Origin: Deltaproteobacteria bacterium
GTDB taxonomy: Bacteria > Desulfobacterota > Binatia > UTPRO1
Assembly (NCBI GenBank): GCA_029262315.1
Contig: JAJCZP010000071.1
Span: 1 to 64,000 of the forward strand
Direction: 5' to 3'
DNA: 64,000 nt
Of the stretch, positions 330-41,886 are shown piece by piece. A program made the translations under genes and the position numbers. Numbering within the stretch: the stretch's first letter is position 1; every line of letters starts with the position of its first letter. The notes beneath the pieces were generated by a model, which made no database searches, had not been told where the DNA came from, and was given only the letters and a program-made list of their open reading frames with translations.

Positions 330-2531
330 GTGCGAGCGGATGCCAAGTTCCGCCCCCACATGGCACGGCGCTGGCGATTCAAGGGCGACGGTCCGATCGA
401 GGTCATGCGCGACACCCACGGGGTGCCGCACGTGCGCGTAACGACCGAGGCCGATCTCTATCGAGGTCTCGGCAATTGCCACGCCGTCGACCGCGCCCTG
501 CCCATGCTGCTGCTGCGTATCCTCGGCACCGGCCGCGGCTCGGAGATCCTCGAGGCGAGCGACGACATGCTCGCGTCCGATCGTTTCTTTCGCCGCTGCA
601 ACCTCGCGGCCGACGTCGAGCAGGAGGTCGCCAAACTGGGGCCGGATGAACGCGTCCGGGCCGAGGCCTACTGCGAAGGCGTCAATCGCGCGCTCGCGGA
701 GCGCTCCCCGTGGGAACTGCGCCTGCTCGGATACATCCCCCGCCCCTGGACGCTCCACGACGTGGTGCTGATGTCGCGCCTGGCCGGCTTCATTGGCCTC
801 GCTCAGTCGCAGGGCGACAGCGAGCGCCTGTTTCTCGAGATGCTGCACGCTGACGTCCCGCGAACGCACCTCGCGGAGCTCTTCCCCGGACTGTTCGCAG
901 ACGCCGACCTCGACCTGTTGAAGCGCGTCACGCTCGGCGCCCGGCTCATACCCGAGAGTGTCCGCTGGAGCACGACACTGACGCGCATGGTCGCCTCCAA
1001 CAACTGGGCGGTTGCGCCCAAGAAGACCCGCGACGGCACCGCCATCGGCGCCTACGATCCGCACCTCGAAACCAATCGCCTGCCGCCGATCTGGTACGAG
1101 ATCGTCTTCGACCTTCCCGATCGCTGGTGCGTTGCCGCGACCATGCCCGGCATCCCCGGCCTCCTCTTCGGCCGCACCAACGATCTCTCATGGGGCGCGA
1201 CCTACACCTTCATGGACGCGATCGACTCATGGGTGGAGGACTGTCGCGACGGCCAGTATCGCCGTACCCACGACGGGACCGATCATTGGGAGCACTTCCA
1301 GACACGGACGGAGGTCATCACGCGCAAGCGGAAGCCCGAGACCACCGTCACCTTCTACGAGAACGAGCACGGCGTGCTGGAGGGTGACCCGCACGTGCCC
1401 GGCCACTATCTCACTACGTGCTGGGCAAGTGGCGCAGGCACCGGCGCCGCGTCCCTGCGCTCGTTGTTCGGCATACTGCACGCGCCGAACGTCACCGCCG
1501 GCATGGAACTCCTCGGGGGAGTCGAGACCGCGTGGAACTGGGTGCTCGCCGATCGCCAGGGGAACATCGGCTACCAGATGTCGGGCCGCATGCCGATCCG
1601 ACGCGACGGCTGGCGTGGCTTCGTTCCGCAACCGGGATGGGACGTCGCCAACGATTGGCGCGGCTTCGTCGCAGCGCGGGATCTCCCGCGAGAGTACAAC
1701 CCGGAGCGCGGCTTCGTCGCCACCGCGAACGAAGATCTGAATCACCTCGGCAGCGTGGATCCGATCAACATGCCGATGGGCCCCTACCGCGCCGACCGCA
1801 TCGCCGCACTACTCGCCGCGCGTGACGATTGGACCGTCGACGACTGTCGCGTCATGCAACTCGACGTCCACTCGCGCCACGCCGACGATTTTCTCGCCGT
1901 GCTCCTCCCGCTCCTTCCCGACACGCCGGAAGCCACGGCCCTCCGAACCTGGGACCGCGGTTACGATCTGGAGTCGCGCGCCGCCACCCTCTTCGAACGC
2001 TTCTACCGCGCGCTCCTGATCGACGTGTTCGGCGCCACCTGCGGACCCGACGTCATGGAGTTCATGATCAACGAAACCGGAATCCTCACCGACTTCTACT
2101 ACAACTTCGACCGTATCCTGCTCAGCGCCGAGAGCGTCTGGTACGGCCCCGAAGGACGCGACGCCACCTGGACACGCATCGCAGCCCAGGCACTCCCAGG
2201 CCCCGTCCGCCCATGGGGTGACGAACGCCAACTCGTCATGAAACATCTGCTGCTCGGCGGCCGCCTCCCCCGCTGGCTCGGCTTCGATCACGGCCCCATC
2301 CCGCTGCGCGGCAACCGTGCCACGATCCACCAGGGACAAATCTACCGTTCCGGCGGCCGCCAAACGAGCTTCGCCCCATCGCTCCGCATAGTCACCGACC
2401 TCGGCACCGACGAAGTCCACACCGCCATGGCCGGAGGCCCCTCCGACCGCCGCTTCTCCCGCTGGTACCGCACCGGCATCCCCGACTGGATAGCCGGCCG
2501 CCTAAAACCCCAACGCCCCAGCCCAAAATAA
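330..2531 (+). CDS. Penicillin acylase (penicillin amidase) family Ntn-hydrolase
   Basis: 733 aa; ASNNWAV autoprocessing motif with Ser codon at 996-998, followed by DPHLE, PGIPGLLFGRTNDLSWG. Confidence 0.9.
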   Translation: MRADAKFRPHMARRWRFKGDGPIEVMRDTHGVPHVRVTTEADLYRGLGNCHAVDRALPMLLLRILGTGRGSEILEASDDMLASDRFFRRCNLAADVEQEVAKLGPDERVRAEAYCEGVNRALAERSPWELRLLGYIPRPWTLHDVVLMSRLAGFIGLAQSQGDSERLFLEMLHADVPRTHLAELFPGLFADADLDLLKRVTLGARLIPESVRWSTTLTRMVASNNWAVAPKKTRDGTAIGAYDPHLETNRLPPIWYEIVFDLPDRWCVAATMPGIPGLLFGRTNDLSWGATYTFMDAIDSWVEDCRDGQYRRTHDGTDHWEHFQTRTEVITRKRKPETTVTFYENEHGVLEGDPHVPGHYLTTCWASGAGTGAASLRSLFGILHAPNVTAGMELLGGVETAWNWVLADRQGNIGYQMSGRMPIRRDGWRGFVPQPGWDVANDWRGFVAARDLPREYNPERGFVATANEDLNHLGSVDPINMPMGPYRADRIAALLAARDDWTVDDCRVMQLDVHSRHADDFLAVLLPLLPDTPEATALRTWDRGYDLESRAATLFERFYRALLIDVFGATCGPDVMEFMINETGILTDFYYNFDRILLSAESVWYGPEGRDATWTRIAAQALPGPVRPWGDERQLVMKHLLLGGRLPRWLGFDHGPIPLRGNRATIHQGQIYRSGGRQTSFAPSLRIVTDLGTDEVHTAMAGGPSDRRFSRWYRTGIPDWIAGRLKPQRPSPK

Positions 2532-2583: not shown

Positions 2584-3264
2584 CTAGAGGAAAGCCCGGT
2601 TCCCGAACCGATCAAGCGAAACAACTTCGCCGACCGGCCGTCGCGTCGTCGGACCGTACTTGCCGATTGGCCATCCCATCGGAATCACCGCGCACGGCGT
2701 CACGTTCCACGGCAAGCCGAGCGTCCACCGGGCGAGCAACTTACTCCAGAGTGGAAGCGTAATCAGGGCCGCGCCCAAGCCAGTGGCACGTGCCGCCAGC
2801 AAAAGATTTTGCACCGACGGGTATATCGAGCCGTACATGCTGCTCGCGGCAATCGACGGCCACGGCGGGATGAACTGCCGGAGACAGGCGACGACGACCA
2901 CTGGGATCTCCTCGAAATGATCCGCCTGCCACTGCACCGCGTCGAGGATGCGGAGCATCGGCGCGTTCCCTTGGCGCCCCATCATCCAACGACCGAGCGG
3001 ACCGTAGATGTTGAACGCGGAGCGGTTCAACTGGCCGAGCCGCGCCTTCACGGCCCGGTCTTTGACGACGATGAACTCCCAGTTCTGCGCGTTCGATCCA
3101 GTGGGCGCGCGCAGTGCTAGCTCGATGCATTTCAGGATGAGTGCGTCGTCGACGGGATCGGGCTTCAGCCGGCGGATCGCGCGCTGCGTCCGCATCGCCT
3201 GATCGAGGGGCATCGCGAACGGTGACGGAGTAAAGGTCTGGGGGGCGGATTCGGCCATGATCAT
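2584..3264 (-). CDS. Nitroreductase family protein
   Basis: RAIRRLKPDPVDDALILKCIELALRAPTGSNAQNWEFIVVKD typical nitroreductase N-terminus; start chosen at 3264/3258, overlapping the upstream gene stop. Confidence 0.85.
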   Translation of the reverse strand: MIMAESAPQTFTPSPFAMPLDQAMRTQRAIRRLKPDPVDDALILKCIELALRAPTGSNAQNWEFIVVKDRAVKARLGQLNRSAFNIYGPLGRWMMGRQGNAPMLRILDAVQWQADHFEEIPVVVVACLRQFIPPWPSIAASSMYGSIYPSVQNLLLAARATGLGAALITLPLWSKLLARWTLGLPWNVTPCAVIPMGWPIGKYGPTTRRPVGEVVSLDRFGNRAFL

Positions 3265-4244
3265 GTCCTCTTCAGGCGAGGCGCCACCTCGCGCATGAAA
3301 CGCTCGGGCTGCGATTCGCCGCTGCCGACGTCGGCCAGATCCTGAAACCACAGGATGATGAGCTCGGCGCCGTGGTCGATGTAGAACTGCAACTCCTCGG
3401 TCACCTGATCGGCCGTGCCGATGCAGCAACCCTTGAAGAATTTGTTGACGCGCTCGGGCTCGGAACCCGGCCAGTAGCGCGTGATGTAGGCCAGGCGCTC
3501 GTCATCGTTGGCGAAGATCGCACAGGTCCGTTCGGACGACACGCGCATCGTCGCCGGGTCACGTCCCACGTCCTTGCAGTGCTGATGCAGGATGCGCAGC
3601 TTGTCCTCGAACACGTCGGGGCCGCGATTGTGGTTCCACCCATCGGCGTACTGCGCGACCATCTTGAGCGCGACCTTCTCGCCCTGCGCGCCGATCCAGA
3701 TCGGTGGGTGCGGCGACTGCAGCGGCTTCGGCTCGTTGATCGCGTTCGTGACCGACCAATGCGTCCCCTCGACACTCGCCTTCTCCTCAGTGAACATCGC
3801 CTTCAGAATTCGCGCCGTGTCGGCCATTCGATCGAGGCGGCCGCGGATCTTCGGAAACTCGTAGCCGTACGCGGCGAACTCCTCATCCTTCCACCCGGCC
3901 CCGAGGCCGACATCGACGCGACCGCCACTGATCACATCGACGCAGCTCGCGATCTTCGCGAGGTAGGCCGGATTGCGGTAGAGCGAACAGGTGACGAGCT
4001 GTCCAAGTCGAATCGTCGACGTGGCCTCGGCGAGCGCCGCCATCGTCGTCCAGCATTCGAACGTCGGCTCGATCTCGGGGCGCGGCACGGTGTGGAAGTG
4101 ATCGTAGAGCCAGAGCGAGTCGTAGCCGATCGCCTCGAGCCGCTGCGCGACGCGCTTGGTGGTCGCCCACTGCTCGGCGCCGCCCTTGATGTGGCGCATT
4201 TCGAGCCGCCATCCTTGTGGTGCGAACGTGCCGATCTGAACCAT
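3261..4244 (-). CDS. LLM-class (F420/FMN) flavin-dependent oxidoreductase
   Basis: YDSLWLYDHFHTVP, RIRLGQLVTCSLYRNPAYLAKIASCVDVISGGRVDVGLGAGW; 4-nt overlap with downstream nitroreductase. Confidence 0.9.
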   Translation of the reverse strand: MVQIGTFAPQGWRLEMRHIKGGAEQWATTKRVAQRLEAIGYDSLWLYDHFHTVPRPEIEPTFECWTTMAALAEATSTIRLGQLVTCSLYRNPAYLAKIASCVDVISGGRVDVGLGAGWKDEEFAAYGYEFPKIRGRLDRMADTARILKAMFTEEKASVEGTHWSVTNAINEPKPLQSPHPPIWIGAQGEKVALKMVAQYADGWNHNRGPDVFEDKLRILHQHCKDVGRDPATMRVSSERTCAIFANDDERLAYITRYWPGSEPERVNKFFKGCCIGTADQVTEELQFYIDHGAELIILWFQDLADVGSGESQPERFMREVAPRLKRT

Positions 4245-4478
4245 GGGACCCCTCCGCTCCGAGAACCTGCGCGAGCGGCGGCCCTGGGTCAAGACACGCG
4301 CCCGTTGACCAGGGCCACACTCGGGTATAGTCGCGCGCCGATGGGTGGTGAGCGGATCAGGAGCGCCGGGGGACGGACGAGTCGGCCAGCCAGGCCTTGC
4401 GGCGTGCGAGCGGCACCGAGCCAGACGACCTGCGGCCGCCCGTATCCGAGCATCCGGACGTTGGTCCGGGGGCCCTGC

Positions 4479-6584
4479 ATGTTGGTCGCCCTGATGCTCG
4501 CCGCCCTCGTCGGCGGCTGCAACACATTCACCGTCGAGCTCTCGGTGCCAGAAACGCTTCTGCCGACGCACGAGCTTCGCGTTGGCGCGGCGCGCGAGGA
4601 GATCACGCCGGTGCCCGGGCTCCCGATGGGGGGGTACGGCTTCATCGGCCAGACCGCGCGCGGCTTCTGGACGCGTCTGTACGCGAACGCGCTGGTCATC
4701 GAAGACCCGGACGGGACACCGCTCGTGCTGGTCTCGTGCGATCTCTGGGCCCTGCCCGGCGGATTGGCCGACGAAGTGGCGGCCCGGGTACGCGCCGACT
4801 CGCGCGGCCTTGGCATCGGGCGCGAGCATCTGGTGATCGCGGCCACGCACACCCATCAAAGCCCGGGTGCGTACGCGAGCGCGCTCGCCTACAACGCGGT
4901 GGCCGGACCGGAGTCTGGTTTCGATCCCGCCCTCTTCGACTTCCTGGCGACGCGCATCAGTCGCGCCATCCTCCGCGCCGCCAACACACGCGCGCCCGCG
5001 ACGATGAGTTGGCGTGACGGGCACCTCGCCCGCCTGGTCCGCAATCGTTCGATGGGCGCCTTCAGCCGCAATCCCGCGAACGAGACCTCGGACTTCGTCG
5101 GCCCGGGGAATGCGGTGCCGTACTGCGATCTCCGTACACCGGTCGCCGACCGCAACGCCTGCCGCGCTGTCGACGCCACCGCGACAGTGATCCGCTTCGA
5201 GCGCGACGACACCATCATCGGGGCCGCGGTGTTCGTCGCGCTGCACCCGACCGCGGCGGGTCCCGGCGTCGCCGTCTACTCGAGCGACGTGTTCGGTATC
5301 GCCGGCATCCACGCGGCGCGCCAGCTACAGGCACTCGAGGGCGGCGCTCCTCCCGTGCTCGCGTTCTTCAATGGCGCCGAGGGCGATGTCAGTGCCGATT
5401 GGCGCCAGCAAGATGGTCCGCACGCGGTGGCACTCGGCCGCCAACTCGGTGCCGCGGTGACGGAACTCGCGGCGGGCGGCACACGCGAAGAGCACGTCGC
5501 CATCGACTACGCCTTCGAGCGCTTCGACCTCGCGGGAGCGTGTCGCACCGACGAGGACGGCACCGAACGCTGCGCGGCGTCACGTCCATCCGTTGGCCGG
5601 GCCACCCTCGCCGGAGCGAGCGACGGGCGGACCCATGCCTGGCCCTCGATCTTTCGCGCCGGTGTCACCCGCAAAGCACTTGGGCCGCAGGGCGTGAAAG
5701 TTCCGGCGATGGATCCAGGGTTTGGATGGTTCCGTCTGCCGCTCTCGTCGTTGATCCTCCTGCCCATCCGCGGCCCGAGCAATGCCGCGCTCGGCGTCTA
5801 CCGGCTCGGACCACTCGCGATCGCTACCCTCCCGGGCGAGTTCACGACCATGATGGGCCGGCGCATCGCGGTCGACGTCGCCCAGGCGCTGCCGTCGACA
5901 AAGCGCGTGCTCCTGGCCGGATTGGCGAACGCCTACCTGTCCTACTTCACCACGCCAGAGGAGTACGCGGGCCAGTTCTACGAGGGCGCTTCGACCCTCT
6001 ATGGCCCCGAGTCGGGACCGGTGATCGGGGCCGGGATCACCCGACTGGCCTCGATGGTCGAGCGTGGCAAACGCACGCGGCAGCCGCGCGTCGAAACCAT
6101 CGCCTACTCACCGGGTCCGGAACGCCAGTTCGGGCTCGAGGATGTCGAAGCGCCCCACGTCTCCGACGAAGGACTCGGACACCTGCTGCACGAGCCGCCC
6201 TACAAGCAGGGGCAGCCGTACCCGAGCACCTGCTGGACCGGGGCCGCTCCACGCTTTCCCGAGGTTCGGCTCCCAACGGTCGCGATCGAGATCGCGAGCG
6301 ACGACGACACGTGGAGCCCGCTCGCCGGCGCCGACAACTTCGGCACCGACATCATCACCGTCGCCAGCCCACGCGACGATGGCAACGCCGATTGGCGCGC
6401 CATCTGGATGCCGAACCCCTCCGTTCCGCTGAACGCCCGCGTGCGCTTCGTCGTGCAGCACGGCGAGCCCGCCAAGGGGGCAGGGGACATCGCGCAGGCG
6501 AAGGACGCCCAGCCGGCACCGATACGGAGCGAGCCGTTCACGCTCGACGGCCCCGACTTCGCGTCCTCGTGTCCCGCTCGCTGA
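4479..6584 (+). CDS. Neutral/alkaline ceramidase-like lipoprotein
   Basis: Lipobox-like MLVALMLAALVGGC; LRVGAAREEITPVPGLPMGGYG, VIAATHTHQSPGAY, FFNGAEGDVS, as in the neutral ceramidase family. Longer track ORF N-terminus is antisense to the LLM gene. Confidence 0.8.
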   Translation: MLVALMLAALVGGCNTFTVELSVPETLLPTHELRVGAAREEITPVPGLPMGGYGFIGQTARGFWTRLYANALVIEDPDGTPLVLVSCDLWALPGGLADEVAARVRADSRGLGIGREHLVIAATHTHQSPGAYASALAYNAVAGPESGFDPALFDFLATRISRAILRAANTRAPATMSWRDGHLARLVRNRSMGAFSRNPANETSDFVGPGNAVPYCDLRTPVADRNACRAVDATATVIRFERDDTIIGAAVFVALHPTAAGPGVAVYSSDVFGIAGIHAARQLQALEGGAPPVLAFFNGAEGDVSADWRQQDGPHAVALGRQLGAAVTELAAGGTREEHVAIDYAFERFDLAGACRTDEDGTERCAASRPSVGRATLAGASDGRTHAWPSIFRAGVTRKALGPQGVKVPAMDPGFGWFRLPLSSLILLPIRGPSNAALGVYRLGPLAIATLPGEFTTMMGRRIAVDVAQALPSTKRVLLAGLANAYLSYFTTPEEYAGQFYEGASTLYGPESGPVIGAGITRLASMVERGKRTRQPRVETIAYSPGPERQFGLEDVEAPHVSDEGLGHLLHEPPYKQGQPYPSTCWTGAAPRFPEVRLPTVAIEIASDDDTWSPLAGADNFGTDIITVASPRDDGNADWRAIWMPNPSVPLNARVRFVVQHGEPAKGAGDIAQAKDAQPAPIRSEPFTLDGPDFASSCPAR

Positions 6585-6688
6585 CGGCACCCGCGGTACT
6601 AACCCGCGGGGCGAGCGAAGTGGCCGGCAAACACCGCGCACGCGACGTCGCTTGACGCGCACAAGCACACGCGCCACCGTGCGCACGC

Positions 6689-6898
6689 ATGCGCGTCGAC
6701 ATTAGCTGCAAGAAGTGCGGCACCCGAAGCCGCCAGGATCTCGGCGACCCCGGCGAGACGTCCGTCGAAGAGTACCTACACCTGCTCACCGAGCGGCTGA
6801 CTCACAAACCGAGCTTCGAATGCTTCGGCGGCCACCTCGAGCTGGCGCCCCCGCTCCCGAACTTCTGGGTCATCCACTGGGACACGCTCGGCGACTGA
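6689..6898 (+). CDS. Small hypothetical protein with CxxC
   Basis: 69 aa ORF MRVDISCKKCGTRSRQDLGD...; no family recognised. Confidence 0.45.
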   Translation: MRVDISCKKCGTRSRQDLGDPGETSVEEYLHLLTERLTHKPSFECFGGHLELAPPLPNFWVIHWDTLGD

Positions 6899-6950
6899 GC
6901 GGCGCGGGCGCAGCCCTCGCTCCGAGACGGACCCTAGAACTTCGGGTTCC

Positions 6951-7718
6951 CTAGCCCGCCATCGTCAGGCCACCGGACACGCTGACGACCTGGCCGGTGA
7001 TGAAGCGCGCTTCCGCCGACGCGAGAAAGGCGACCGCGCCGGCAACGTCCTCGGGCTGGCCGAGGCGGCCGAACGGAATGGCCCGCTTCAGCCCGGCGAC
7101 GACCTTGGCGCCGTACTCGCTCTCGCCGACCGACGCCAGGAGCGTGGTGTCGGTCGGGCCGGGGCAGACGACGTTCACGGTGACGAGATCGCGGGCGAGC
7201 TCGCGCGCCAGCGACTTCGAGAAGCCGATGATCGCCGCTTTGCATCCCGCGTAGACCGCCTCGCCCGAGCTACCGACGCGGCCGGCATCGGAGCTGACGT
7301 TGATGATCCGTCCTCGGTCGCCAGCGGCACGCAGGTCTTCGAGCGCGGCATGGGTACACAGCAGCATGCCGCGATAGTTGATGGCGATCAGCTTGTCCCA
7401 GGTGGCGGCATCACTGTCCTTGAAGAACCCGAACACGTCCCACCCGGCATTGTTGACGAGAAGATTCGGCGGACCGAGCTGCTCCCGCAACGACGCGAAG
7501 GCAGCGCGCACCTCGTCCTCACTCGTGATGTCGGCTGGAGAAGCCACCGCGTGACCACCGGCTTCGCGAACGGCATCACACGTCGCGGCACTGCCGTCGG
7601 CATCGCGGTCGAGCACCCCGACGGCCCATCCGTCGGCGGCCAGGCGAAGCGCCAACGCTCTGCCAATACCGCCCGCGCCGCCGGTGACGACCGCGACCAT
7701 CGATGCTTGCTCGCTCAT
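6951..7718 (-). CDS. SDR family NAD(P)-dependent oxidoreductase
   Basis: VVTGGAGGIGRALA, NNAGWD, YxxxK (YAGCKAA). Confidence 0.92.
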   Translation of the reverse strand: MSEQASMVAVVTGGAGGIGRALALRLAADGWAVGVLDRDADGSAATCDAVREAGGHAVASPADITSEDEVRAAFASLREQLGPPNLLVNNAGWDVFGFFKDSDAATWDKLIAINYRGMLLCTHAALEDLRAAGDRGRIINVSSDAGRVGSSGEAVYAGCKAAIIGFSKSLARELARDLVTVNVVCPGPTDTTLLASVGESEYGAKVVAGLKRAIPFGRLGQPEDVAGAVAFLASAEARFITGQVVSVSGGLTMAG

Positions 7719-7742
7719 GAGATGTCTCTCTCCCGAGGAACG

Positions 7743-8717
7743 CTACCAGGCGTACGCTTCGGGCGCAGCACCGCCTGGGCCGGGCCAGATCTCGTCCAGG
7801 CGCGCCAGCGCGGCGGTGTCGAGCGCGACCTCGAACGCCTTTGGGCCGGCCTGCAGCTGTTCCATCGTACGCGGACCCAGAATCGGCGACGTGATCCCCG
7901 GCCGCTGCAGCAACCACGCCAGCGCTACGTCGGCGGGCGCATGGCCCAGTTCCGCGCAGAAGCTCTCCCAACGCTCGAGCTGCGGGCGGCGCTCGTCGAC
8001 CAAACGGCGGATGCGGGCCGACGCCACACGCCGGCCTTCGTTCAGCTTCTGCAACACCCCGCCGAGTAGTCCACCACTCAGCGGACTCCATGGCAGGATG
8101 CCGACGCCGAGCTCCTGACACGCCGGGACAACTTCGAGTTCGATCGTCCGCGAGTAGAGATTGTAGAAGCTCTGCTCCGAGACGATGCCGAGAAGGTGGC
8201 GCGCCTCGGCGACCGCGTTCGCGCGCGTGATGTGCCAAGCGGCGAAGTTGCTGCTGCCGACGTACAACACCTTGCCCTCCCGGACGAGCTGCTCCATGGC
8301 CTGCCAGATCTCGTCCCACGGCGTCGTCCGATCGATGTGGTGCATCTGGTAGAGATCGATGTGATCGGTCTGGAGCCGCCTCAGACTCTCCTCACACGCC
8401 CGCCGGATCTGATAGGCGGACAGACGCGAGTCGTTCGGCCCGTCGCCCATGGATCCGTACACCTTGGTGGCCAGCACGACGCGCTGGCGCGCGCCCTCGC
8501 GCTCGGCAAGCCAGCGACCGATGATCTGCTCGGTAATGCCCTCGCCCCGCGTCTGGCCGTACACGTTGGCGGTGTCGAAGAAGTTGATGCCGAGGTCGAG
8601 CGCCGTATCCATCATCGCGAAGCTCTCGGCCTCGGTGGCGTACGGGCCGAAGTTCATGGTGCCGAGGCAGAGACGACTGACATGCAAGCCGGTGCGACCG
8701 AGTCCGACGTAGTCCAT
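7743..8717 (-). CDS. Aldo/keto reductase
   Basis: MDYVGLGRTGLHVSRLCLGTMNFG, INFFDTANVYG, DLYQMHHIDRTTPWDEIW. Confidence 0.93.
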   Translation of the reverse strand: MDYVGLGRTGLHVSRLCLGTMNFGPYATEAESFAMMDTALDLGINFFDTANVYGQTRGEGITEQIIGRWLAEREGARQRVVLATKVYGSMGDGPNDSRLSAYQIRRACEESLRRLQTDHIDLYQMHHIDRTTPWDEIWQAMEQLVREGKVLYVGSSNFAAWHITRANAVAEARHLLGIVSEQSFYNLYSRTIELEVVPACQELGVGILPWSPLSGGLLGGVLQKLNEGRRVASARIRRLVDERRPQLERWESFCAELGHAPADVALAWLLQRPGITSPILGPRTMEQLQAGPKAFEVALDTAALARLDEIWPGPGGAAPEAYAW

Positions 8718-8865
8718 GGGCTCGGGATGTACGCCTGCCGCACCGGTACGGCAAGGCACCGACCGCTCGGTCCGCGCCGCCGGAGCGCACCGCCGGAGCG
8801 CACCTGCACCCCCCGGCCGGTTCGAGCATCGCGCGCCGCACCATATTCGCGCATAATGCTGGTTC

Positions 8866-22131: not shown

Positions 22132-23295
22132 GTGCGACGCGTCCTCCTCATCCAGCCCTCGCTGCAACCACCTGGTGGGGGCAATGCTGTCGCCGCTTGG
22201 ATGGTGCAGGCCCTTCGCGGCCACGCCGATGTCTCGATCCTGGCCTGGACGGGCATCGACACAGCTCCGATCAATCGCTTCTTCGGTACGACGCTCAGCC
22301 CGCGCGACTTCACACTCCACGTCATCTCTCCGACGACCCGCCGGCTGATCGACGCCGCCCCGACTCCGCATGCGATGTTGCAGATGCACGCGCTGCTGCG
22401 CCGCGCCCGCCAACTCCATCGCATGGCACCGTACGATCTCATGCTCACCGCCAACAACGAGGCGGATTTTGGCGAGCGCGGCATCCAGTACGTGCACTAC
22501 CCGTGGGCCGCACTGCCGCGGCCGACTACCGATCTCCGGTGGTTTCACCACATCCCGGGATTCCTTCGCGCCTACTGGGCCCTCTGCGGCCTACTCTCCG
22601 AGTTCTCCTGGCCGCGCATGCGACGCAACATGACGCTCGTGAACTCGCAGTTCATCGCCGAGAAGACCCGGGCCGTGCACGGCATCGACCCGATCGTTTT
22701 GCACCCCCCCGTACCAGGAGACTTCCTCGAGGTGCCGTGGAGCGCGCGCCAGAACGGTTTCGTGTGCGTCGGCCGCCTGTCCCACGAGAAAGAGCAACTC
22801 AAGGTCATCCGCATCATCGATGGTCTGCGGGCGCGGAACCACGATCTGCACCTGCATCTCGTCGGCTCCGCGAATGATCCGCCGTTCGTTGCCGAACTCC
22901 GCGCGCAGATCCGCACCCGCAGCGAGTTCGTCACTCTGCACGAGGACATTTCTCGCGCCGAGCTGGTGACGCTCTTGACGCACAATCGCTACGGCATCCA
23001 CGGCATGGTTGGCGAGCACTTCGGGATCGCGGTCGCCGAACTACAGCGCGCCGGTTGCGTCACGTTCGTTCCAGACATCGGCGGGCCTCGCGAGATTGTT
23101 GGCGATGACCCCAGACTCCTCTACGGGTCCGAGCAGGACGCCATTGTGCGCATCGACCGAGTCCTCCGCGACCCTGATGCCCAGCATGCGCTAGCAGCAC
23201 GTGTCCGCGAGCGGCGCGATCTTTTCAGCGAAGAGCGCTTCGTCGACGGGTTTCTGACGCTCGTAGCGACGTTTCCGACACGCGCCGTGGCCTGA
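22132..23295 (+). CDS. GT4 glycosyltransferase, ALG11-like
   Basis: GTG start; IQYVHYPW, VNSQFIAEKTRAVHG...VLHPPVPGDFLEVP, VGRLSHEKEQ, YGIHGMVGEHFGIAVAELQRAGCVTFVPDIGGPREIV. Confidence 0.75.
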   Translation: MRRVLLIQPSLQPPGGGNAVAAWMVQALRGHADVSILAWTGIDTAPINRFFGTTLSPRDFTLHVISPTTRRLIDAAPTPHAMLQMHALLRRARQLHRMAPYDLMLTANNEADFGERGIQYVHYPWAALPRPTTDLRWFHHIPGFLRAYWALCGLLSEFSWPRMRRNMTLVNSQFIAEKTRAVHGIDPIVLHPPVPGDFLEVPWSARQNGFVCVGRLSHEKEQLKVIRIIDGLRARNHDLHLHLVGSANDPPFVAELRAQIRTRSEFVTLHEDISRAELVTLLTHNRYGIHGMVGEHFGIAVAELQRAGCVTFVPDIGGPREIVGDDPRLLYGSEQDAIVRIDRVLRDPDAQHALAARVRERRDLFSEERFVDGFLTLVATFPTRAVA

Positions 23296-23335: not shown

Positions 23336-25162
23336 TCAGGCCTTGTCGGGCTGCGTCGCGATGGTCCGGAACACGAGATTGCGATCGACCAAATCGTCGT
23401 AGGAACCCACGTCGTCGACGCGACCGTCTTTGAGAAAGATCAGGCGGTCGCACGCACGGACCGTCGTCAACCGGTGCGCGACGATGATCCGAGTCACGCT
23501 CCCTGGAAGAGTGGCGAGCGCGCGCACGAGCTCGGCCTCGGTGCGGTTGTCGAGCGCCGACGTGGCTTCGTCGAAGATGAGCACATCGGGCGTGGCGTAC
23601 AACGCGCGCGCAATCCCGACACGCTGCCGCTCGCCGCCGGAGAGACGAACACCGTGCTCACCGACGCGCGTCCGCAGGCCGTCGGGAAGCCCGGCCACGA
23701 ACTCGTCGAGCTGCGCGACGCGAAGCGCCGTGGCCAAGCGGGCCGGATCGATCTGATCGTCGCCGACCCCAAGGGCGATGTTCCGCGCCAGGGTGTCGTC
23801 GACAAGGACGACCGCCTGCGGCACGTAGCCGATGCGCCGATGCCAGGCACGCCGCACTTCACCTCCGGATGCGAGATCACAGCCGTCGACGGTCACCCGT
23901 CCGACGGTCGGTGTGAGGACGCCAAGTACCAGATCGGCGAGGGTGCTCTTCCCGGCCCCGGTGAACCCAACCACACCGATCGATTCGCCACATCGAATGG
24001 TGAGATCGACATCACTGAGAATCGGCGCCTCACTGCCGTAGCCGAAGGTCACTCCCTCGAGCGCCAGACGATCGGCGAACGGGAGCACCGGCCCGTCGGC
24101 GTCGAGTGAGTCGTCGCCAAGCGCCTCGACCTCGCGCACATCCTTGGAGAGCTGTGCGACCGCGGCCCCCGCACCCCGAATCTCTCCGATATAGAGCATG
24201 AGCCGGTTGGCGGACGGAATGATGCGAAATCCGGCGTAGGCGTAAAGACCGAGCAGCGGAAGCGCCTCTGGACCGGTGCGTCCCAACAGCACGACGACCG
24301 CGATCAGCACGAACGCGCCGCCAACGAAGAGCGTCTCTACCAGCAACCGCGGCATCGCCCCGAGCGTCGTGTGCAGATGCTGCACGCGCACGAGGCCCCG
24401 TTGCGCCCGGCCGAACCCGTCCGAGAAGTAGCGCTCGCGACCGAGGACCTTGATCTCCTTCACCGCGCCGAATGTCTGATGCAGGCTCTGCAGAATCTCA
24501 CCGACCAACGCCTCTGCGCGACGACCCCAGCGAGCCACCATCCGCCGCGACAAGCGAAGAAACACGGCCGCGGCACTTCCGAGCAAGAGACCTATGGCGA
24601 GGGTCGCCATTGGCGCGACCGCCAACAGGACCCCCCCGATTGCCGCCATCACCATGATCTCGAACACCAACGCGACCGTCGGGGCCATGGCGTTCCTGAA
24701 CACGACGGCGGACGAATGCGCGACGTTCCGAATCAACTCGGCGGAGTTCCGTTGCAAGTGGAAGGCATACGGTGCGCGGAGATAGATCGTCAGAAGCCGA
24801 CACGCGAGATTCGCCGTCTCCTGAGCGACCAGACCACTATTGGCGTAGGTCTGCAGCATCTGCAGCACGTTCTTCACGAGGTAGAACGTGACGAGGAGGA
24901 GCGTGAAGGCCAGCACGATCCCGCGCTCGCTTTGCCACGGCAGCCACGCATAGATGGTCGCGGCGACGGGCAACGTCGCCGCGCGAGCCGGCTCGCCGAC
25001 AATCTGGATCAGTCCGAAGAGCGCGGCGGCGCTCGCAGCCTCGGCGCCCGCTGTCAGCACGGCCAGCGGAATCAACGCCGCCCAGCGTGCACGCGGCACG
25101 CTGCTGAGCGCGAACGTCCGGCGAACCGTTTCGCGCACCGTGGGAGGCGCCGGACGGCTCAC
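23336..25162 (-). CDS. ABC transporter (fused TMD-NBD), PglK/MsbA-like putative lipid-linked oligosaccharide flippase
   Basis: GAVKEIKVLGRERYF, Walker A GFTGAGKST, IGYVPQAVVLVDDTLARNIALG, LSGGERQRVGIARAL. Confidence 0.85.
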   Translation of the reverse strand: MSRPAPPTVRETVRRTFALSSVPRARWAALIPLAVLTAGAEAASAAALFGLIQIVGEPARAATLPVAATIYAWLPWQSERGIVLAFTLLLVTFYLVKNVLQMLQTYANSGLVAQETANLACRLLTIYLRAPYAFHLQRNSAELIRNVAHSSAVVFRNAMAPTVALVFEIMVMAAIGGVLLAVAPMATLAIGLLLGSAAAVFLRLSRRMVARWGRRAEALVGEILQSLHQTFGAVKEIKVLGRERYFSDGFGRAQRGLVRVQHLHTTLGAMPRLLVETLFVGGAFVLIAVVVLLGRTGPEALPLLGLYAYAGFRIIPSANRLMLYIGEIRGAGAAVAQLSKDVREVEALGDDSLDADGPVLPFADRLALEGVTFGYGSEAPILSDVDLTIRCGESIGVVGFTGAGKSTLADLVLGVLTPTVGRVTVDGCDLASGGEVRRAWHRRIGYVPQAVVLVDDTLARNIALGVGDDQIDPARLATALRVAQLDEFVAGLPDGLRTRVGEHGVRLSGGERQRVGIARALYATPDVLIFDEATSALDNRTEAELVRALATLPGSVTRIIVAHRLTTVRACDRLIFLKDGRVDDVGSYDDLVDRNLVFRTIATQPDKA

Positions 25163-26352
25163 GCTCTCCGCCTGCCCGCGCCCACGACCTCACGCACGAG
25201 GGCCTCGAAACGCTCGCCGAATCTCGCCCGCGTGAACCCCGCCTCGACGCGAGCGCGCCCCGCGACTCCCATGGTACGCGCCAACGCGGGCTCGGCGACG
25301 AAACGCGCCAACGCGCCGGCAAACGCAGCCGCCTCGGGGGGACACAGAAACCCCGTCTCACCATCGATGACCGTCTCGGCCGGGCCGCCCCGATTCACGG
25401 CAACGACCGGCTTTCGCGCGACCATGGCCTCGAGCGGCACCAGGCCGAAGTGCTCATCCTCCGGCGTGTACACGACGCAGAGCGCACGCGAAAGGAGCCC
25501 CTGCAGATCGCGGTCGGACGGTGAACGCACGAGCGTCATACGATCCTCGACGCCCAACTCACCCGCCAATGCAAGCAAGCCATCAACGACCGCGCGATCC
25601 TCCCGCAGACGCTGGTCGTACCCCCCGGCAAGCACCAGCCGGAGCGACCCGAAAACCTCAGGAGCAAGCGTCCGCCGCAAGACGGCGAACGCCTCGATCG
25701 CAAGCCGGAGATTCTTTGCCGGATCGAAGCGGCTCACGCTCAGAATGAACGGCACATCATCTAGACTCGGCAACTGCGGCGGCACCGTCAGGGCGATGCC
25801 GGGATAGACGACGTCGGGCGTCCGGTCCGCGAGGCGGGGAAACGCATCGCGGAACCGCAGCGCGGTGAATCGACTGTTGACGAACACCCGATCCGCGAGC
25901 CCAGTGCCGTACTGCTCGAGTCGATCGATTGGGGCGCGATACAACTGGTAGAGGCGGTTCCGACGTGGCACCAGCAACTGGTCGGGGAAGTGACAATAGA
26001 AAACGATCGGGGCCCGCGTCATGGCCCGCACGATCGGGATGACGTGCGCCACGAGATCACACACCACCACGTCGTGCGGCTCGGCGCGAAGGGCGGTGGC
26101 GGCAAGGTAGGCCATCCGCACGATCGCGCTCGGCGCGCGGAGCCGCTGGCCCACATGGAGCGGCAACAAGCCGCCGCGCACGCGCACGTCGAGCGTTCCG
26201 TCGATCGTCGGCGCGAAAGCCCGTGCGCGATCGTGATGCGACGTGAAGATCATCACCTCGTGGCCGCGCGCTTGCATCTCGACCGCAGCGTCGACGATGA
26301 GTCGCTCGGCGCCGCCGAGGCCAAGGTCGGGATGAAGGAAAATGACCCTCAT
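25159..26352 (-). CDS. GT4 mannosyltransferase, ALG2-like
   Basis: RVIFLHPDLGLGGAERLIVDAAVEMQARGHEV, VVVCDLVAHVIPI, FYCHFPDQLLVPRRNRLYQLYRAPIDRLEQYGTGLADRVFVNSRFTA, LAGGYDQR, VVYTPEDEHFGLVPLEAM. Confidence 0.88.
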   Translation of the reverse strand: MRVIFLHPDLGLGGAERLIVDAAVEMQARGHEVMIFTSHHDRARAFAPTIDGTLDVRVRGGLLPLHVGQRLRAPSAIVRMAYLAATALRAEPHDVVVCDLVAHVIPIVRAMTRAPIVFYCHFPDQLLVPRRNRLYQLYRAPIDRLEQYGTGLADRVFVNSRFTALRFRDAFPRLADRTPDVVYPGIALTVPPQLPSLDDVPFILSVSRFDPAKNLRLAIEAFAVLRRTLAPEVFGSLRLVLAGGYDQRLREDRAVVDGLLALAGELGVEDRMTLVRSPSDRDLQGLLSRALCVVYTPEDEHFGLVPLEAMVARKPVVAVNRGGPAETVIDGETGFLCPPEAAAFAGALARFVAEPALARTMGVAGRARVEAGFTRARFGERFEALVREVVGAGRRRA

Positions 26353-27641
26353 TGCCCCTCTGACGGCAGCAGGAGCGGCCGGGCACTCTCGGCCCAAGCG
26401 TCGTTCCAGCGAGTCTTTTCGCGTGCCGCCACGGCGGCACGGAGGCGTTCGAGCTCGGTCGTCGTGGCCGGAAACTCACCGAAGAGTCGCTCGAGGTGGG
26501 TCGCCAGCTCGCCCGCGCTCGTGAACAGCACGCCGGTCGTGCCATCCTCGATCTGCTCGCGTAGACACGGGGCGTAGTCGAGCGCGCATACCGGCACGCC
26601 CGCGCCGAACATATCGGCCACCTTCATTGGCAAATCGAGGCCCGATGCCGAGCGGTGCACCGACAGACCGAGGTCGGCGGCGCCGAGCAGCCGTGGATAG
26701 TCCGCGGCATCGAGCCAGAGCACGCGGATCGCGACCATCGACAGCGTGAGTGCCGCAATGCTTCGCAGATGATGATCGCGGAGCGGCCCATCGCCGGTCA
26801 GTGCGACGACGACGCGCGGCACGGGCGCCCCACCGGCGCCCGAAGACGCGAGAAGCCGCCGATCGAGATCGACGAGCGCGGCAAGGAGCAAGTCGATGTC
26901 CTCATCGACGGTCCAACTACTGGGACTCACGATCAATGCGGGCCGATCTGGGCCACGAACGGCCAGTCGTGGATCGAGGTCCGTTCCCAGCCGGCGAAAC
27001 AGCCCCTCCCGCACATCCGCTGGCGTAGGAACGAAGAAGTCCGCCGGTCGATCATAGAGGACCGTCGCATCGCCAATACTCCAGCGCTCGGCGAGCGCGG
27101 CTCGCATGGCACGCGAGACACAGAGGTGGGCATCCGCCCGACGCCCGAGGGCGCGTTCGTAGGCACGGGCCACACGGACGATCGGATGATCGTGGCCAAG
27201 CGTGAGCCCCAACATCGCATGGCCGAAATTGTGCCAGTCGATGACCAGCCGGGCGGCTCGCGTGCGACACACGACGAGCGCCACGAACAGCACCGGAATC
27301 GCCGGGGGATTCTGCACCAGGACCACCGACGGCCGCGGCACGCGGACGAGCAACATCCAGGCAAGCTCGAGCGTCTGACGCAAACCACGCCAGAGGGCGT
27401 AGACGAGAAAGGCCAGCCGTGGCAAGCGAGCCCCGGCGCCCGTCCTCGGCGCCCACAACCGATGCACGTGTACCCGTGGATGCTCGCTCACCGCACGGGG
27501 GAGCGCGTGTGTCACGTACCCCACGAGGTCGACCTCGGCGCCGGTGTCTCCGAGCGACCGTGCGTGGTAGAGCATCCGCGGGCTGCGCCCGAGATCCCCG
27601 AGAACGACGACGGTGATCCGCGTGCGTGCGTCCGACGACAT
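26349..27641 (-). CDS. ALG1-like beta-1,4-mannosyltransferase (GT33-like)
   Basis: VVVLGDLGRSPRMLYHARSL, VQNPPAIPVL, LVIDWHNFGHAMLGLTLG, HLCVSRAMRAALAERWSIGDATVLYDRPADFF, SPSSWTVDEDIDLLLAAL, WLDAADYPRLLGAADLGLSVHRSASGLDLPMKVADMFGAGVPVCAL. Confidence 0.92.
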   Translation of the reverse strand: MSSDARTRITVVVLGDLGRSPRMLYHARSLGDTGAEVDLVGYVTHALPRAVSEHPRVHVHRLWAPRTGAGARLPRLAFLVYALWRGLRQTLELAWMLLVRVPRPSVVLVQNPPAIPVLFVALVVCRTRAARLVIDWHNFGHAMLGLTLGHDHPIVRVARAYERALGRRADAHLCVSRAMRAALAERWSIGDATVLYDRPADFFVPTPADVREGLFRRLGTDLDPRLAVRGPDRPALIVSPSSWTVDEDIDLLLAALVDLDRRLLASSGAGGAPVPRVVVALTGDGPLRDHHLRSIAALTLSMVAIRVLWLDAADYPRLLGAADLGLSVHRSASGLDLPMKVADMFGAGVPVCALDYAPCLREQIEDGTTGVLFTSAGELATHLERLFGEFPATTTELERLRAAVAAREKTRWNDAWAESARPLLLPSEGQ

Positions 27642-27664: not shown

Positions 27665-28756
27665 GTGACCCGTCGTATAGCCATTGCCGCTGGCGGTACC
27701 GCCGGCCACGTGCATCCGGCATTGGCGGTGGCCGACGCGTATCGCGCACACGATCCCGACGTGGAGATCATTTTCCTCGGAACCGCGGATGGGATCGAGA
27801 CACGCCTCGTCCCGCGCCGCGGATACCCACTGAGATCGATTCCCGGCGCGCCTCTGCTTGGCGTGGGCTTGGCGGGCAAAGCGCGTGCGCTCGCGGCACT
27901 GATCCAGGGCGTTGCCGCGGCCCGCGGCATTCTCCGAACAGCCCGAACGGAGTTGGTGGTTGGATTCGGAGGCTACGCAGGCGCCGGAGCCATCCTCGCC
28001 GCCCGTTCGCTCGGCCTCGCAACCGCCATCCACGAAGCCAATGCCGTCGCCGGCGTCGCGAATCGGATGCTCGGCCGCTTCGCCGATCGCGTGCTGTTGG
28101 GTTTCCCGTCGGCCGCGGCCGACTTCCGCCCCGAGCAGACACTCATCACCGGTTTTCCGATCGCCGACACGATCACCGCCGCCACCCGCGATCGGAACGC
28201 ACGCCCGGAGCCGAACACACTCCACATCCTGGTCACCGGCGGTTCGGGGGGCTCGGCCTTCCTGAATAGGCATGCACCAGTGCTGCTGGCACGCGTTGCC
28301 AGTGGAGGTCTCACACTCGCGATCCAGCATCAATCTGGCACGAACGATCTCGCCGCCGTTCGGGCGGCGTACGCCGCCGCTGGGCTCGAGGCGGCAGTGA
28401 GCGCATATCTCGATGACATGGCAGCAGCCTATCAGGAGGCGGACTTCGCCATCACTTGCGCCGGCGCCGGCACCCTCGCCGAGCTCGCGGCCCGGGGCAT
28501 ACCGGCCTTGCTCGCTCCGCTCGCCAGCGCCGCGCTCGACCACCAACGCGCGAACGCCCGCGCCTACGCCGCCATGACGGATAGTCGCTGTGCGCCCGAA
28601 GACGCCTGGAACGTCGACGAGCTCGCGACCTACCTGATCGATCTGGCGCAATCGCCCGGCGCGCTCGCCGCGGCCGGCGCTCGGGTGCGCGCGGCGGCCC
28701 GCACTGACGCCGCGCACACGGTGGTCGAAGCGCTCGAAGCTTTGCTCGGCGCGTAG
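27665..28756 (+). CDS. MurG-like GT28 glycosyltransferase (ALG13/14-type fold)
   Basis: IAIAAGGTAGHVHPALAVADAY, VVGFGGYAGAGAILAARSLGLATAIHEANAVAGVANRML, ITCAGAGTLAELAARGIPALLAPLASAALDHQRANA; GTG start. Confidence 0.88.
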   Translation: MTRRIAIAAGGTAGHVHPALAVADAYRAHDPDVEIIFLGTADGIETRLVPRRGYPLRSIPGAPLLGVGLAGKARALAALIQGVAAARGILRTARTELVVGFGGYAGAGAILAARSLGLATAIHEANAVAGVANRMLGRFADRVLLGFPSAAADFRPEQTLITGFPIADTITAATRDRNARPEPNTLHILVTGGSGGSAFLNRHAPVLLARVASGGLTLAIQHQSGTNDLAAVRAAYAAAGLEAAVSAYLDDMAAAYQEADFAITCAGAGTLAELAARGIPALLAPLASAALDHQRANARAYAAMTDSRCAPEDAWNVDELATYLIDLAQSPGALAAAGARVRAAARTDAAHTVVEALEALLGA

Positions 28757-28761
28757 TCGAC

Positions 28762-31380
28762 TCACGAGCGACCGTCCCAGTCGATCTGCCAGGTCACGAC
28801 CCGCGTACCGCCGACGCCGTGTCGTTCATCCACCTTCCGGAGATGGCGCGCGTAGCGCCCGTCGAGAAAAAGAAGGTGTACGAAGGTCGAACGAATGAGA
28901 TCGTGCGGTCCCACGAGCACGCGCTGATTGAGCTCATCGATCAGCACCGCGACCTCCGCGGGGGGCTCGCCCGCGACGGGCGTCTCGATGCGATCGTCCG
29001 CGGTGGCCTGCACGACCAGGGTCGGCGTCGCGACGAGTTCGCGTCCCGGGTACTTCGGGCGCTCCAATCTCAATCGCACCGAGCTCGGGTCTCCGGGGAC
29101 GAGCGCGACGTTGCGGAGCCAACTCGCCGTACGCCCACGACGCCGCTGAACCGGGCACTGCCAGGCGCCGTCGGCAGCGTCGGCACAGTCGATCCAGTCA
29201 TGGACCAGGAGATCACGACGCCAGGCGGGAAGGGCGGACGTCCCCGACAGCGTGGGCTCCCAACGCGCCAGATCTTTCCAGCTCTTCAACGTGATCTGCT
29301 GGCTGCTGAGCACGAGAAGCGCCGGAGGTGGCGCGCAATGGCTGGCCGCAAGGACGTCGCGCTGTGCCGCGAGCGGGAGCGCGCCTCCCTCGAGCAGCGC
29401 GACCGCACCCGCGCGATCGTGGACCGCGAGCGCCAGCACCAGGTCGTATGCATCTCTCGGCGCCATCCCAGATGCGACCAGGCGCGGGTAGGCACTCTCC
29501 CGCCCCTCGGGCTCGGGCGCCGCCGCCGAGCCGCAGCTCAGCATGCGGAGCAGGCCGAGCGTCTCGCGCTCGTCGGCCGCCATCAAACTCCGCCCGGTCC
29601 AGTAGGGAATACGGGTGCGAAGCGAGCCGCCGTCGGCAGTCACCCGCCGCTCGGCGACGTACTTGGCCCAGTACCCATGGTCCCACCAGAGGTGAAGCAC
29701 CGTCTCGGGTGCGGACTGCGCCCGAATGCTCGTGAGCGTGTCCCACCACGCATCGTCGATCCGCGGACGATAGTGCGATGCCAACGCGTGCGTCAGCTGC
29801 AACGTCGGCAAGAGCAGTGCCACCGCGGCGACCGCCGCCGCCGGACGAGCAGAGCGCCCCACCACTCCCGGCAGCAACGCCAACCCACGCTGCAGGCGGC
29901 CGATCGCATGCCCGAACGCGAGGCCGAAGGGGGCCACCAACAAGAGCACGAAACGCGCACCGATCGACGCCTGCACGGCGCCGACCAGAAACCACACCGT
30001 CGCGACCATCGCCGCGCCGCCGTCGTACGAGGAATCGACCTCGCGATCATCGATCAGTACACGCACGATGGCTGCAACGAGCGCCGGCACGACCAGGAGC
30101 TGGGCGGTGCCGACGCGAGTGAGCTCCGCACCGAAGAGCAGCCGGACGACGATGCCTGTACTCGCGGCGGCCGCCGCCATGTGCCACCAGCGCCAGCCGC
30201 GCCATGGTAGCAGCAGCACGCCGAAGCCGAGCCACCCGACCGTGCGTGCGACCTCCCCGCCGAGCCCACTCCCAATCTCGGCGCGCCTGGGTTCGTAGAG
30301 CTCGGCCACGCCTTCGAACACACTCGGCCACGGCAGCCGGTTCGACACCGCGTCCGCACTCGACGCCGCGATCGCCAAGGCCGGTCCGAGCCTGCGCAGC
30401 ATCTCAACGGGAACCGCGAAATACTCGTGATCGGTACCCGCGATACTCGTGGTCACGAAACAGGCCACGTAGTAGACGACCGTCATCGCGGCGGGACCCC
30501 GCATCGCCTCCGATGCCCGCCGCGGCGCCGGCGTTCCATCGGAACGCACGAATGGGTGCAGGCCAACCACGAAGACGTGGGCGATCAGGGCGGCCAGGAC
30601 GACGCCGTAGGTCAACGGCCAGCCGCTCCACGTACCGGCGTGCAGCCCGACGAAGCCGGCAGCAACGACGCTCCAGGCGCAGGCGCGAGCCAGTGTCGTC
30701 GCGGTCAGCGCCCGGACGATCGCCCACACCAGACACAGGGGCAACACGACATTCCAGACGTCGTTGTCGCTACCGGCGCTCCGGGTCAGGAAAAACGGAT
30801 TCCACGCGATGGCCGCACTGGTCGCAAGACCAGCCAGGTCCCCGCCAAGGCGGCGACCTATGCCGAACGCAGGAAAAATGACGAGCACACCGAGCATCAC
30901 CGGTACGAGATAGGCCGTCGCCGGCAATGGGTAGTCAGGGCGGACGGCGGTAATCACCCGGTGCAGTCCGACCATCGCCACGATGTGCATCGAGCGGCCG
31001 TACCGCATCGCCCGACCGACGGGCGCGTGCGTCAGCGTATCGCGACAGACGCCGTCGACGACCTGGTCACAGGTCGTGCCGTGGCGGAGATAGTTTCGCG
31101 CGGCGCGGAGCCAGACGTAGCTATCGTAGTCGCCGAGGTAGACGTGCGCCCGCCCGCCGGCGTCGTCGTAGCGCAAGAGCGCCTGCGTCTCCGTATCGAG
31201 TCCGGGGAGCGCGAGCGGCAGCAGACGCAGCCAAAGCGTGATGGCTCCGATCGCCAGCAGCAGCGCCCATCGAACCGGGCGCGCCAACACGCCACTGTGC
31301 CCCGCGGACGCCGGCCCCGCGCCGTCGGGCGGCACTGGTGCGCGGCCGTCGGGCTTCGTTGGTGCGCGGCCGGCGTGCAC
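28762..31380 (-). CDS. STT3/PglB/AglB-like oligosaccharyltransferase
   Basis: Multi-TM N-terminal half; GDYDSYVWLRAARNYLRHG, AGSDNDVWN, SVFEGVAELYEP (TIxE/SVSE-like loop), LHLWWDHGYWAKYVAERRV (WWDxG); start approximate (GTG). Confidence 0.88.
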   Translation of the reverse strand: MHAGRAPTKPDGRAPVPPDGAGPASAGHSGVLARPVRWALLLAIGAITLWLRLLPLALPGLDTETQALLRYDDAGGRAHVYLGDYDSYVWLRAARNYLRHGTTCDQVVDGVCRDTLTHAPVGRAMRYGRSMHIVAMVGLHRVITAVRPDYPLPATAYLVPVMLGVLVIFPAFGIGRRLGGDLAGLATSAAIAWNPFFLTRSAGSDNDVWNVVLPLCLVWAIVRALTATTLARACAWSVVAAGFVGLHAGTWSGWPLTYGVVLAALIAHVFVVGLHPFVRSDGTPAPRRASEAMRGPAAMTVVYYVACFVTTSIAGTDHEYFAVPVEMLRRLGPALAIAASSADAVSNRLPWPSVFEGVAELYEPRRAEIGSGLGGEVARTVGWLGFGVLLLPWRGWRWWHMAAAAASTGIVVRLLFGAELTRVGTAQLLVVPALVAAIVRVLIDDREVDSSYDGGAAMVATVWFLVGAVQASIGARFVLLLVAPFGLAFGHAIGRLQRGLALLPGVVGRSARPAAAVAAVALLLPTLQLTHALASHYRPRIDDAWWDTLTSIRAQSAPETVLHLWWDHGYWAKYVAERRVTADGGSLRTRIPYWTGRSLMAADERETLGLLRMLSCGSAAAPEPEGRESAYPRLVASGMAPRDAYDLVLALAVHDRAGAVALLEGGALPLAAQRDVLAASHCAPPPALLVLSSQQITLKSWKDLARWEPTLSGTSALPAWRRDLLVHDWIDCADAADGAWQCPVQRRRGRTASWLRNVALVPGDPSSVRLRLERPKYPGRELVATPTLVVQATADDRIETPVAGEPPAEVAVLIDELNQRVLVGPHDLIRSTFVHLLFLDGRYARHLRKVDERHGVGGTRVVTWQIDWDGRS

Positions 31381-41215: not shown

Positions 41216-41242
41216 CGTTATTACAGTAATTACATGGTAACG
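41216..41242. promoter_or_regulatory. AT-rich pseudo-palindrome, putative MazE operator
   Basis: CGTTATTACAGTAATTACATGGTAACG with perfect GTAATTAC core at 41226-41233 abutting the ATG. Confidence 0.5.
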
Positions 41243-41569
41243 CGGAGGCTGAAGGTCGCGCGCATCGGCAATTCGCGCGGGGTACGACTCCCGGCCGCAT
41301 CGCTCCGGCGCTATCACATTGGCGAATCCGTAGAGATGGAGGAGCTGACCGAAGGAATCCTCCTTCGGCCGAGCGGCCCCGTCGTGGAGAAGTTGTCTTG
41401 GGACCAGACTGCGAGCGAGATGGCAGCACGCACCGAAGACTGGGGTCCCTGGGACGACGCGCTCGCCGACGGACTGGAAAGCATCCCCTGGGAAGATGAC
41501 GCGAAGACCCGCGTCGCCGAGCGGGCAACCACGTCCCGAAAGAAGCCATCCTCCCGGAAGTCCCGATGA
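41234..41569 (+). CDS. AbrB/MazE-family antitoxin
   Basis: VARIGNSRGVRLPAASLRRYHIGESVEMEEL swapped-hairpin AbrB motif. Confidence 0.88.
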   Translation: MVTRRLKVARIGNSRGVRLPAASLRRYHIGESVEMEELTEGILLRPSGPVVEKLSWDQTASEMAARTEDWGPWDDALADGLESIPWEDDAKTRVAERATTSRKKPSSRKSR

Positions 41570-41886
41570 AGCGCTACGAGATGCGCTGGACGGCGCTCGA
41601 CCCAACGACCGGTGCCGAAATGGCAAAGAGACGTCCGGCGGTCATCGTGAGCCTCGACGTCCTGAACCGGACCCTGCGGACGGTCACGGTTTGCCCGCTC
41701 ACCACAGAGCTGCACCCGACGTGGCGCTCGCGACTGCAGGTTCGATGTGCCGGCCGGCGGGCGGAGATCGCCGTCGATCAGATCCGCACGGTGAGTAAGA
41801 GCCGGCTTGGGAACAAGCTCGGCGCACTCAACAAGAACGATGCGGCCATTCTCCGCCGGATCATCACGGAGATGTACGGGGAATAG
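41566..41886 (+). CDS. MazF/PemK-family toxin
   Basis: KRRPAVIVSLDVLNRTLRTVTVCPLTT, EIAVDQIRTVSKSRL; overlaps antitoxin by 4 nt. Confidence 0.9.
   Translation: MKRYEMRWTALDPTTGAEMAKRRPAVIVSLDVLNRTLRTVTVCPLTTELHPTWRSRLQVRCAGRRAEIAVDQIRTVSKSRLGNKLGALNKNDAAILRRIITEMYGE

Follow-up and report, generated by a model that had tools for sequence, protein, structure and literature searches.

The cytosolic half of the eukaryotic ER pathway for lipid-linked oligosaccharides (LLOs) comprises Alg7, Alg13/14, Alg1, Alg2 and Alg11, with STT3 as the terminal oligosaccharyltransferase (OST). The Campylobacter jejuni pgl system employs the single-subunit OST PglB and the ABC flippase PglK, encoded in one cluster, and is not known to contain ALG1 or ALG2. 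Archaeal N-glycosylation involves AglB, an OST of the same superfamily, and in Crenarchaea the chitobiose step is catalyzed by the MurG-fold enzyme Agl24 (PMC8993221). Lombard 2016 (PMC4973528) was unable to establish which prokaryotic proteins are nearest to Alg1 and suggested that the enzyme may be a eukaryotic innovation. No bacterial ALG1 relative was described in the literature that we searched, subscription papers and preprints lying outside the search.

We analyzed a stretch of 64,000 nucleotides, hereafter the window, which sits on contig C71 of the 5.9-Mb genome of a Deltaproteobacteria bacterium of the class Binatia and encodes an STT3-type OST of 872 aa (28762..31380, minus strand). 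Along the minus strand, this gene is followed by a convergent MurG paralogue of the HEAN type (27665..28756, plus strand), proposed from TIGR01133, its motif and a tree to be the chitobiose-forming GlcNAc transferase; an ALG1/GT33 homologue (26349..27641, minus strand), a proposed β-1,4-mannosyltransferase by homology to human and yeast ALG1 and a GT-B model; and an ALG2 homologue (GT4, EX7E; 25159..26352, minus strand), a proposed α-1,3/1,6-mannosyltransferase by identity to human ALG2, family profile and Pfam GT4. The next genes encode a PglK/MsbA-like ABC transporter (23336..25138, minus strand), a proposed LLO flippase for which PglK is the best NCBIfam family, and, convergently, an ALG11-like GT4 (EX7E; 22132..23295, plus strand), a proposed further mannosyltransferase by family profile; both assignments also draw on conservation of the module. 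The ALG1 and MurG paralogue genes are divergent with starts 24 bp apart, and the ALG2 and ALG1 genes overlap by 4 bp. Elsewhere in the window (41234-41886, plus strand) lie two small adjoining genes; judged by eye, they look like an AbrB/MazE antitoxin and a MazF/PemK toxin, which would be a commonplace pair.

On the evidence of homology, fold, catalytic-residue conservation, gene order and co-occurrence, all of which were observed, we consider it probable that this cluster serves N-glycosylation in the bacterium, and that its lipid-linked core, Man(3-5)GlcNAc2-like and of the eukaryotic type, is made by homologues of the cytosolic enzymes of eukaryotes. The system looks like a novel form of bacterial N-glycosylation whose assembly line is homologous to the eukaryotic one. 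In the proposed pathway, a GlcNAc-1-P transferase encoded elsewhere in the genome would form polyprenyl-PP-GlcNAc, the MurG paralogue (MurG2) would add the second GlcNAc, the ALG1 homologue would add the first β-mannose, and the ALG2 homologue and the ALG11-like enzyme would add further mannoses from GDP-mannose. The glycolipid would be flipped by the PglK-like ABC protein, and STT3 would move the glycan onto Asn of exported proteins. The enzyme activities, sugars, linkages, N-linkage and acceptor proteins are those predicted by the established functions of the families.

The locus shares with the eukaryotic ER pathway its full-length ALG1 and ALG2 homologues, a protein resembling ALG11, an enzyme of MurG fold that would add the second GlcNAc, a terminal STT3 and, in relatives, a GlcNAc-1-P transferase. 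However, the bacterial genes are clustered, a single-chain MurG-derived enzyme replaces Alg13/Alg14, the flippase is a PglK-like ABC protein and not Rft1, the OST is single-subunit, and the N-terminal membrane anchor of human ALG1 is missing from the bacterial protein. As in the pgl system, one cluster encodes both a single-subunit OST and an ABC flippase, each of a related family, but the window OST is only ~11–12% identical to PglB in structure alignment and has no conserved MI motif. Archaea possess an OST of the same superfamily but yielded no ALG1 homologue in our motif scan, and MurG2 is clearly related to MurG, whereas Agl24 shares ~16% identity with the bacterial and eukaryotic enzymes (PMC8993221).

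The STT3 reading frame is a real gene: it scores as coding and has a GTG start with a GAGGA ribosome-binding site ahead. Its in-frame extension reaches 31683, and gene scoring puts the start at 31380 or slightly downstream. The protein matches Pfam STT3 with 80.2 bits, above the curated cut-off of 24.5, and STT3-PglB_core with 24.0 bits against a cut-off of 23, and a profile built from 17 relatives matches PDB chains of PglB, AglB and eukaryotic STT3. The comparison of an AlphaFold model with PglB and AglB, suggested in a preliminary description of the gene, found the STT3 fold: the model (pLDDT 81.8, pTM 0.84, from 17 sequences) displays a GT-C multi-spanning fold and a C-terminal soluble domain, as in PglB, and the first 19 Foldseek matches in the PDB are all OSTs, with PglB on top (6gxc, E 4e-17, TM-score 0.69 by target length), followed by AglB and then human and yeast STT3. 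Across 17 homologues D86 (GDYDSY), R200, D205/D207 (SDND), E360 and the WWD of WWDHG (565-569) are invariant or nearly so, and G569 is conserved too. Fold and conservation together suggest that the acidic residues are grouped at the active site. These results support the assignment of 28762-31380 as an STT3/PglB/AglB-type (GT66) OST, which probably attaches sugar chains to proteins. Taken alone, the enzyme is a further member of an established family; it is the surrounding system that looks new.

The STT3 assignment had been made in the preliminary description, every cited peptide of which is present in the window protein. The glutamate of external loop EL5 was misplaced there, in 'SVFE', which is not conserved; the invariant, TVxE-like residue is E360 in 'GVAEL'. 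Nor is the C-terminal region unusually large, as had been claimed, because 872 aa with a C-terminal part of ~330 residues is ordinary in comparison with AglB (~870 aa). The same description correctly saw no clear DK or MI motif near 'SQQITLKSW', and overlooked the eukaryote-like LLO assembly cluster. In their C-terminal domain the 17 homologues conserve neither the DK (DxxKxxx(M/I)) nor the MI (MxxI) motif; W..LGxWD is common there instead, as S-x(n)-W..LGxWD. In the model 'SQQITLKSW' lies at a strand (687-692) followed by a broken helix (693-705), and by analogy it may occupy the place of the MI/DK motif of PglB/AglB. DK/MI motifs differ between OST subfamilies, and for this reason we do not take their absence as excluding an OST.

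The human ALG1, ALG2 and ALG11 and yeast ALG1 sequences used for comparison were only partly verified: human ALG1 agrees with published patient variants at S258, A360 and Q50 (PMC7616334). The bacterial ALG1 profile matches, among these four, only human and yeast ALG1 (401 and 333 bits). Seven more human ALG1 positions probably match variants as well, and verification otherwise covered human ALG2 at V68 only. In BLAST, window ALG1 and human ALG1 can be aligned from end to end (38%, E 2e-96), beginning at human residue 31, as can window ALG1 and yeast ALG1 (34%). In a joint alignment with the same comparison sequences, identity to human ALG1 is 39% for the window protein, 45% for a homologue from locus L025 and 37% for yeast ALG1, and 39 positions are invariant over 18 bacterial and the two eukaryotic ALG1 sequences. 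The ALG1 model has a confident GT-B fold (pLDDT 89.6), and a sequence search of the PDB with window ALG1 retrieved no relative at E below 0.1. Window ALG2 is 45% identical to human ALG2 over 403 columns, with 314 bits for the latter versus 77 for its best PDB match by sequence, and it matches Pfam GT4 with EHFGLVPLE as its EX7E. The bacterial ALG2 profile scores human ALG2 at 456 bits and human ALG11 at 106. By sequence, no other GT4 tested comes anywhere near as close to ALG1 or ALG2 as the respective eukaryotic namesake.

The ALG11 assignment is weak. The ALG11-like family profile scores human ALG11 at 102 bits versus 53 for human ALG2, over the C-terminal half only; the window protein by itself matches human ALG11 weakly (30%, E 4e-10) and does not match Pfam ALG11_N. 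None of the ALG1, ALG2 and ALG11-like profiles matched in a reversed-sequence control. EX7E is a motif of retaining GT4 enzymes; both the ALG2 and the ALG11-like protein carry it and ALG1 does not, the pattern expected for these families, and the absence of the motif from ALG1 fits an inverting enzyme.

The module MurG scores 250.0 bits with TIGR01133, just under the equivalog cut-off of 250.25, and the cell-wall MurG of the same genome is a separate gene on contig C100. Where the motif is readable, module MurGs carry HEAN (one HECN) instead of HEQN, and all except the L055 MurG form a branch separate from the cell-wall type (84/98). We propose that the paralogue is distinct from cell-wall MurG and would be suited to chitobiose synthesis. 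The ABC transporter reaches 255.6 bits with the PglK equivalog NF050066, versus a cut-off of 1000, which is still its top NCBIfam family. A GlcNAc-1-P transferase lies in the cluster in relatives and outside it here, where the candidate is a PF00953 enzyme on C256, other than the MraY-like one adjoining MurG. A GDP-mannose pyrophosphorylase-like gene on C94 scores under its family cut-off.

Among 148 Binatia genomes, 15 contain ALG1, 26 contain STT3 and 13 contain both. STT3 is present in 13/15 ALG1-bearing and 13/133 ALG1-less genomes (Fisher p=6e-10, a value that overstates independence because the genomes are related). The two genes share a contig, at most ~8 kb apart, in 10 of the 13 genomes with both. 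A wider motif scan, with two motifs, of 84,980 bacterial and archaeal species (one genome per species) revealed 35 ALG1 loci, all bacterial, in Binatia and 'Deltaproteobacteria', Acidobacteria, Rokubacteria, Myxococcota, a Phycisphaeraceae, a Gemmatimonadaceae and a Bacteroidetes bin. An STT3 match occurs anywhere in 20 of the 31 genomes behind these loci, some of which are the same Binatia genomes under other handles. No archaeal homologue was found among the 84,980 species; since [RK]L[IV][VI]DWHN occurs in human and yeast ALG1, an archaeal gene bearing the motif would show up, and more divergent genes would escape. No ALG1 homologues were found in viral contigs.

In the 40 ALG1 loci examined (38 distinct), many of them interrupted by contig ends, the partners are an ALG11-like protein (21), a flippase (21), MurG2 (20), a GlcNAc-1-P transferase (17) and ALG2 (10). 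Beyond Binatia, the module is found again in Acidobacteria, Rokubacteria and Myxococcota. STT3 lies within ~10 kb of ALG1 at 13 distinct loci, 8 identified with the family profile and 5 with Pfam, the latter in Rokubacteria, Myxococcota and Acidobacteria. Several clusters contain no ALG2, which is truncated in genome G003, and four-gene Acidobacteria clusters (flippase, ALG11-like, GPT, ALG1) have STT3 in the genome and none nearby. Another Acidobacteria group (L028, L029, L030, L031, L048 and L054) forms a well-supported clade of lone ALG1 genes with no module, in mostly STT3-less genomes, and the ALG1 family is thus not bound to N-glycosylation everywhere. At L037, L041, L050 and L051 (Rokubacteria, Acidobacteria), the STT3 adjoining ALG1 has an AglB-type core (PF22627), whereas that of the window is of the PglB-core type; one and the same set of assembly genes accompanies different OSTs.

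It is unlikely, though a reading to be taken seriously, that the OST is real and performs PglB-like N-glycosylation while the neighboring transferases have changed donors or acceptors and build an unrelated bacterial oligosaccharide. Homology leaves donor or linkage unfixed in GT4 and GT28 enzymes, the relationship of the ALG11-like protein to its namesake is distant, and known bacterial OSTs use diverse glycans (PMC4894442). However, ALG1 is conserved end to end with its 39 invariant positions and ALG2 at 45%, and with a chitobiose-type MurG in one module such retention would be hard to attribute to chance. That the cluster product is a surface polysaccharide or glycolipid, with STT3 acting on a target other than Asn or being a mere neighbor, we regard as improbable: the retained metal-site acids and sequon-reading WWDxG, the strong association of ALG1 with STT3 both within the class and along contigs, and conserved partners that include no ligase or polymerase all speak against it, whereas the STT3-free surroundings of some ALG1 clusters, the genomes that have no STT3 and the sequon counts would suit it.

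The secreted-proteome search proposed in the preliminary description gave no enrichment: N-X-S/T sites occur at 0.96 of expectation in 111 predicted secreted proteins and at 1.09 in cytosolic ones, the genome being compared with an STT3-less relative. This result neither supports nor excludes N-glycosylation. Together with it, we count against the eukaryote-type pathway the off-cluster GlcNAc-1-P transferase, the sub-cut-off GDP-mannose gene, the ALG2-less clusters, the lone ALG1 clade, the weak ALG11 assignment and the only partly verified comparison sequences. Metagenome-assembled genomes can carry contaminants, and we give almost no credence to a eukaryotic or artefactual source of the ALG genes, which are intron-free, share the G+C of the window and lie mid-contig amid bacterial genes; the recurrence of the same module in many independent bacterial assemblies led us to reject it.

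With an ALG1 family now seen in bacteria, in a cluster linked to an OST, the origin of Alg1 becomes directly testable. In an unrooted LG tree, human and yeast ALG1 group with L025 (94/86) and with L025, L052 and L027 (93/93), and an unrooted LG+C20 tree recovers the latter grouping (75/79); all three loci are from bacteria bearing the STT3-linked module. These positions, and the lack of an archaeal homologue in the motif scan, make it quite possible, if tentative, that eukaryotes acquired ALG1, and perhaps ALG2, from module-bearing bacteria, so that the eukaryotic N-glycan core pathway would be partly bacterial. No usable outgroup was found, none of the GT4 enzymes tried being close enough; the ALG1 tree is therefore unrooted, and the reverse transfer, from eukaryotes to bacteria, may have occurred. 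If the cluster makes GlcNAc2-mannose LLOs, it would provide the eukaryotic N-glycan core from a natural source in bacteria, together with an OST transferring it, of use in making glycoproteins in bacteria, and bacterial N-glycosylation would be widened well past the Campylobacter type.

Additional STT3 genes were observed. L027 harbors tandem STT3 genes (3207-5990 and 6062-8851, both plus strand) inside one ALG1 module, as if two OSTs of different acceptors used one common glycan. The genome of the window encodes two more STT3 paralogues, each at a contig end. A single second gene split over C56 and C58 was rejected: the overlapping parts share 77% identity at the DNA level and 76% at the protein level, and the pieces thus represent two separate paralogues. 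Divergent from the paralogue at L020 (G000:C58; 2-1030, minus strand) is a gene (1150-2343, plus strand) whose product, 397 aa long and predicted to be secreted, contains 7 N-X-S/T sites and may be a dedicated acceptor.
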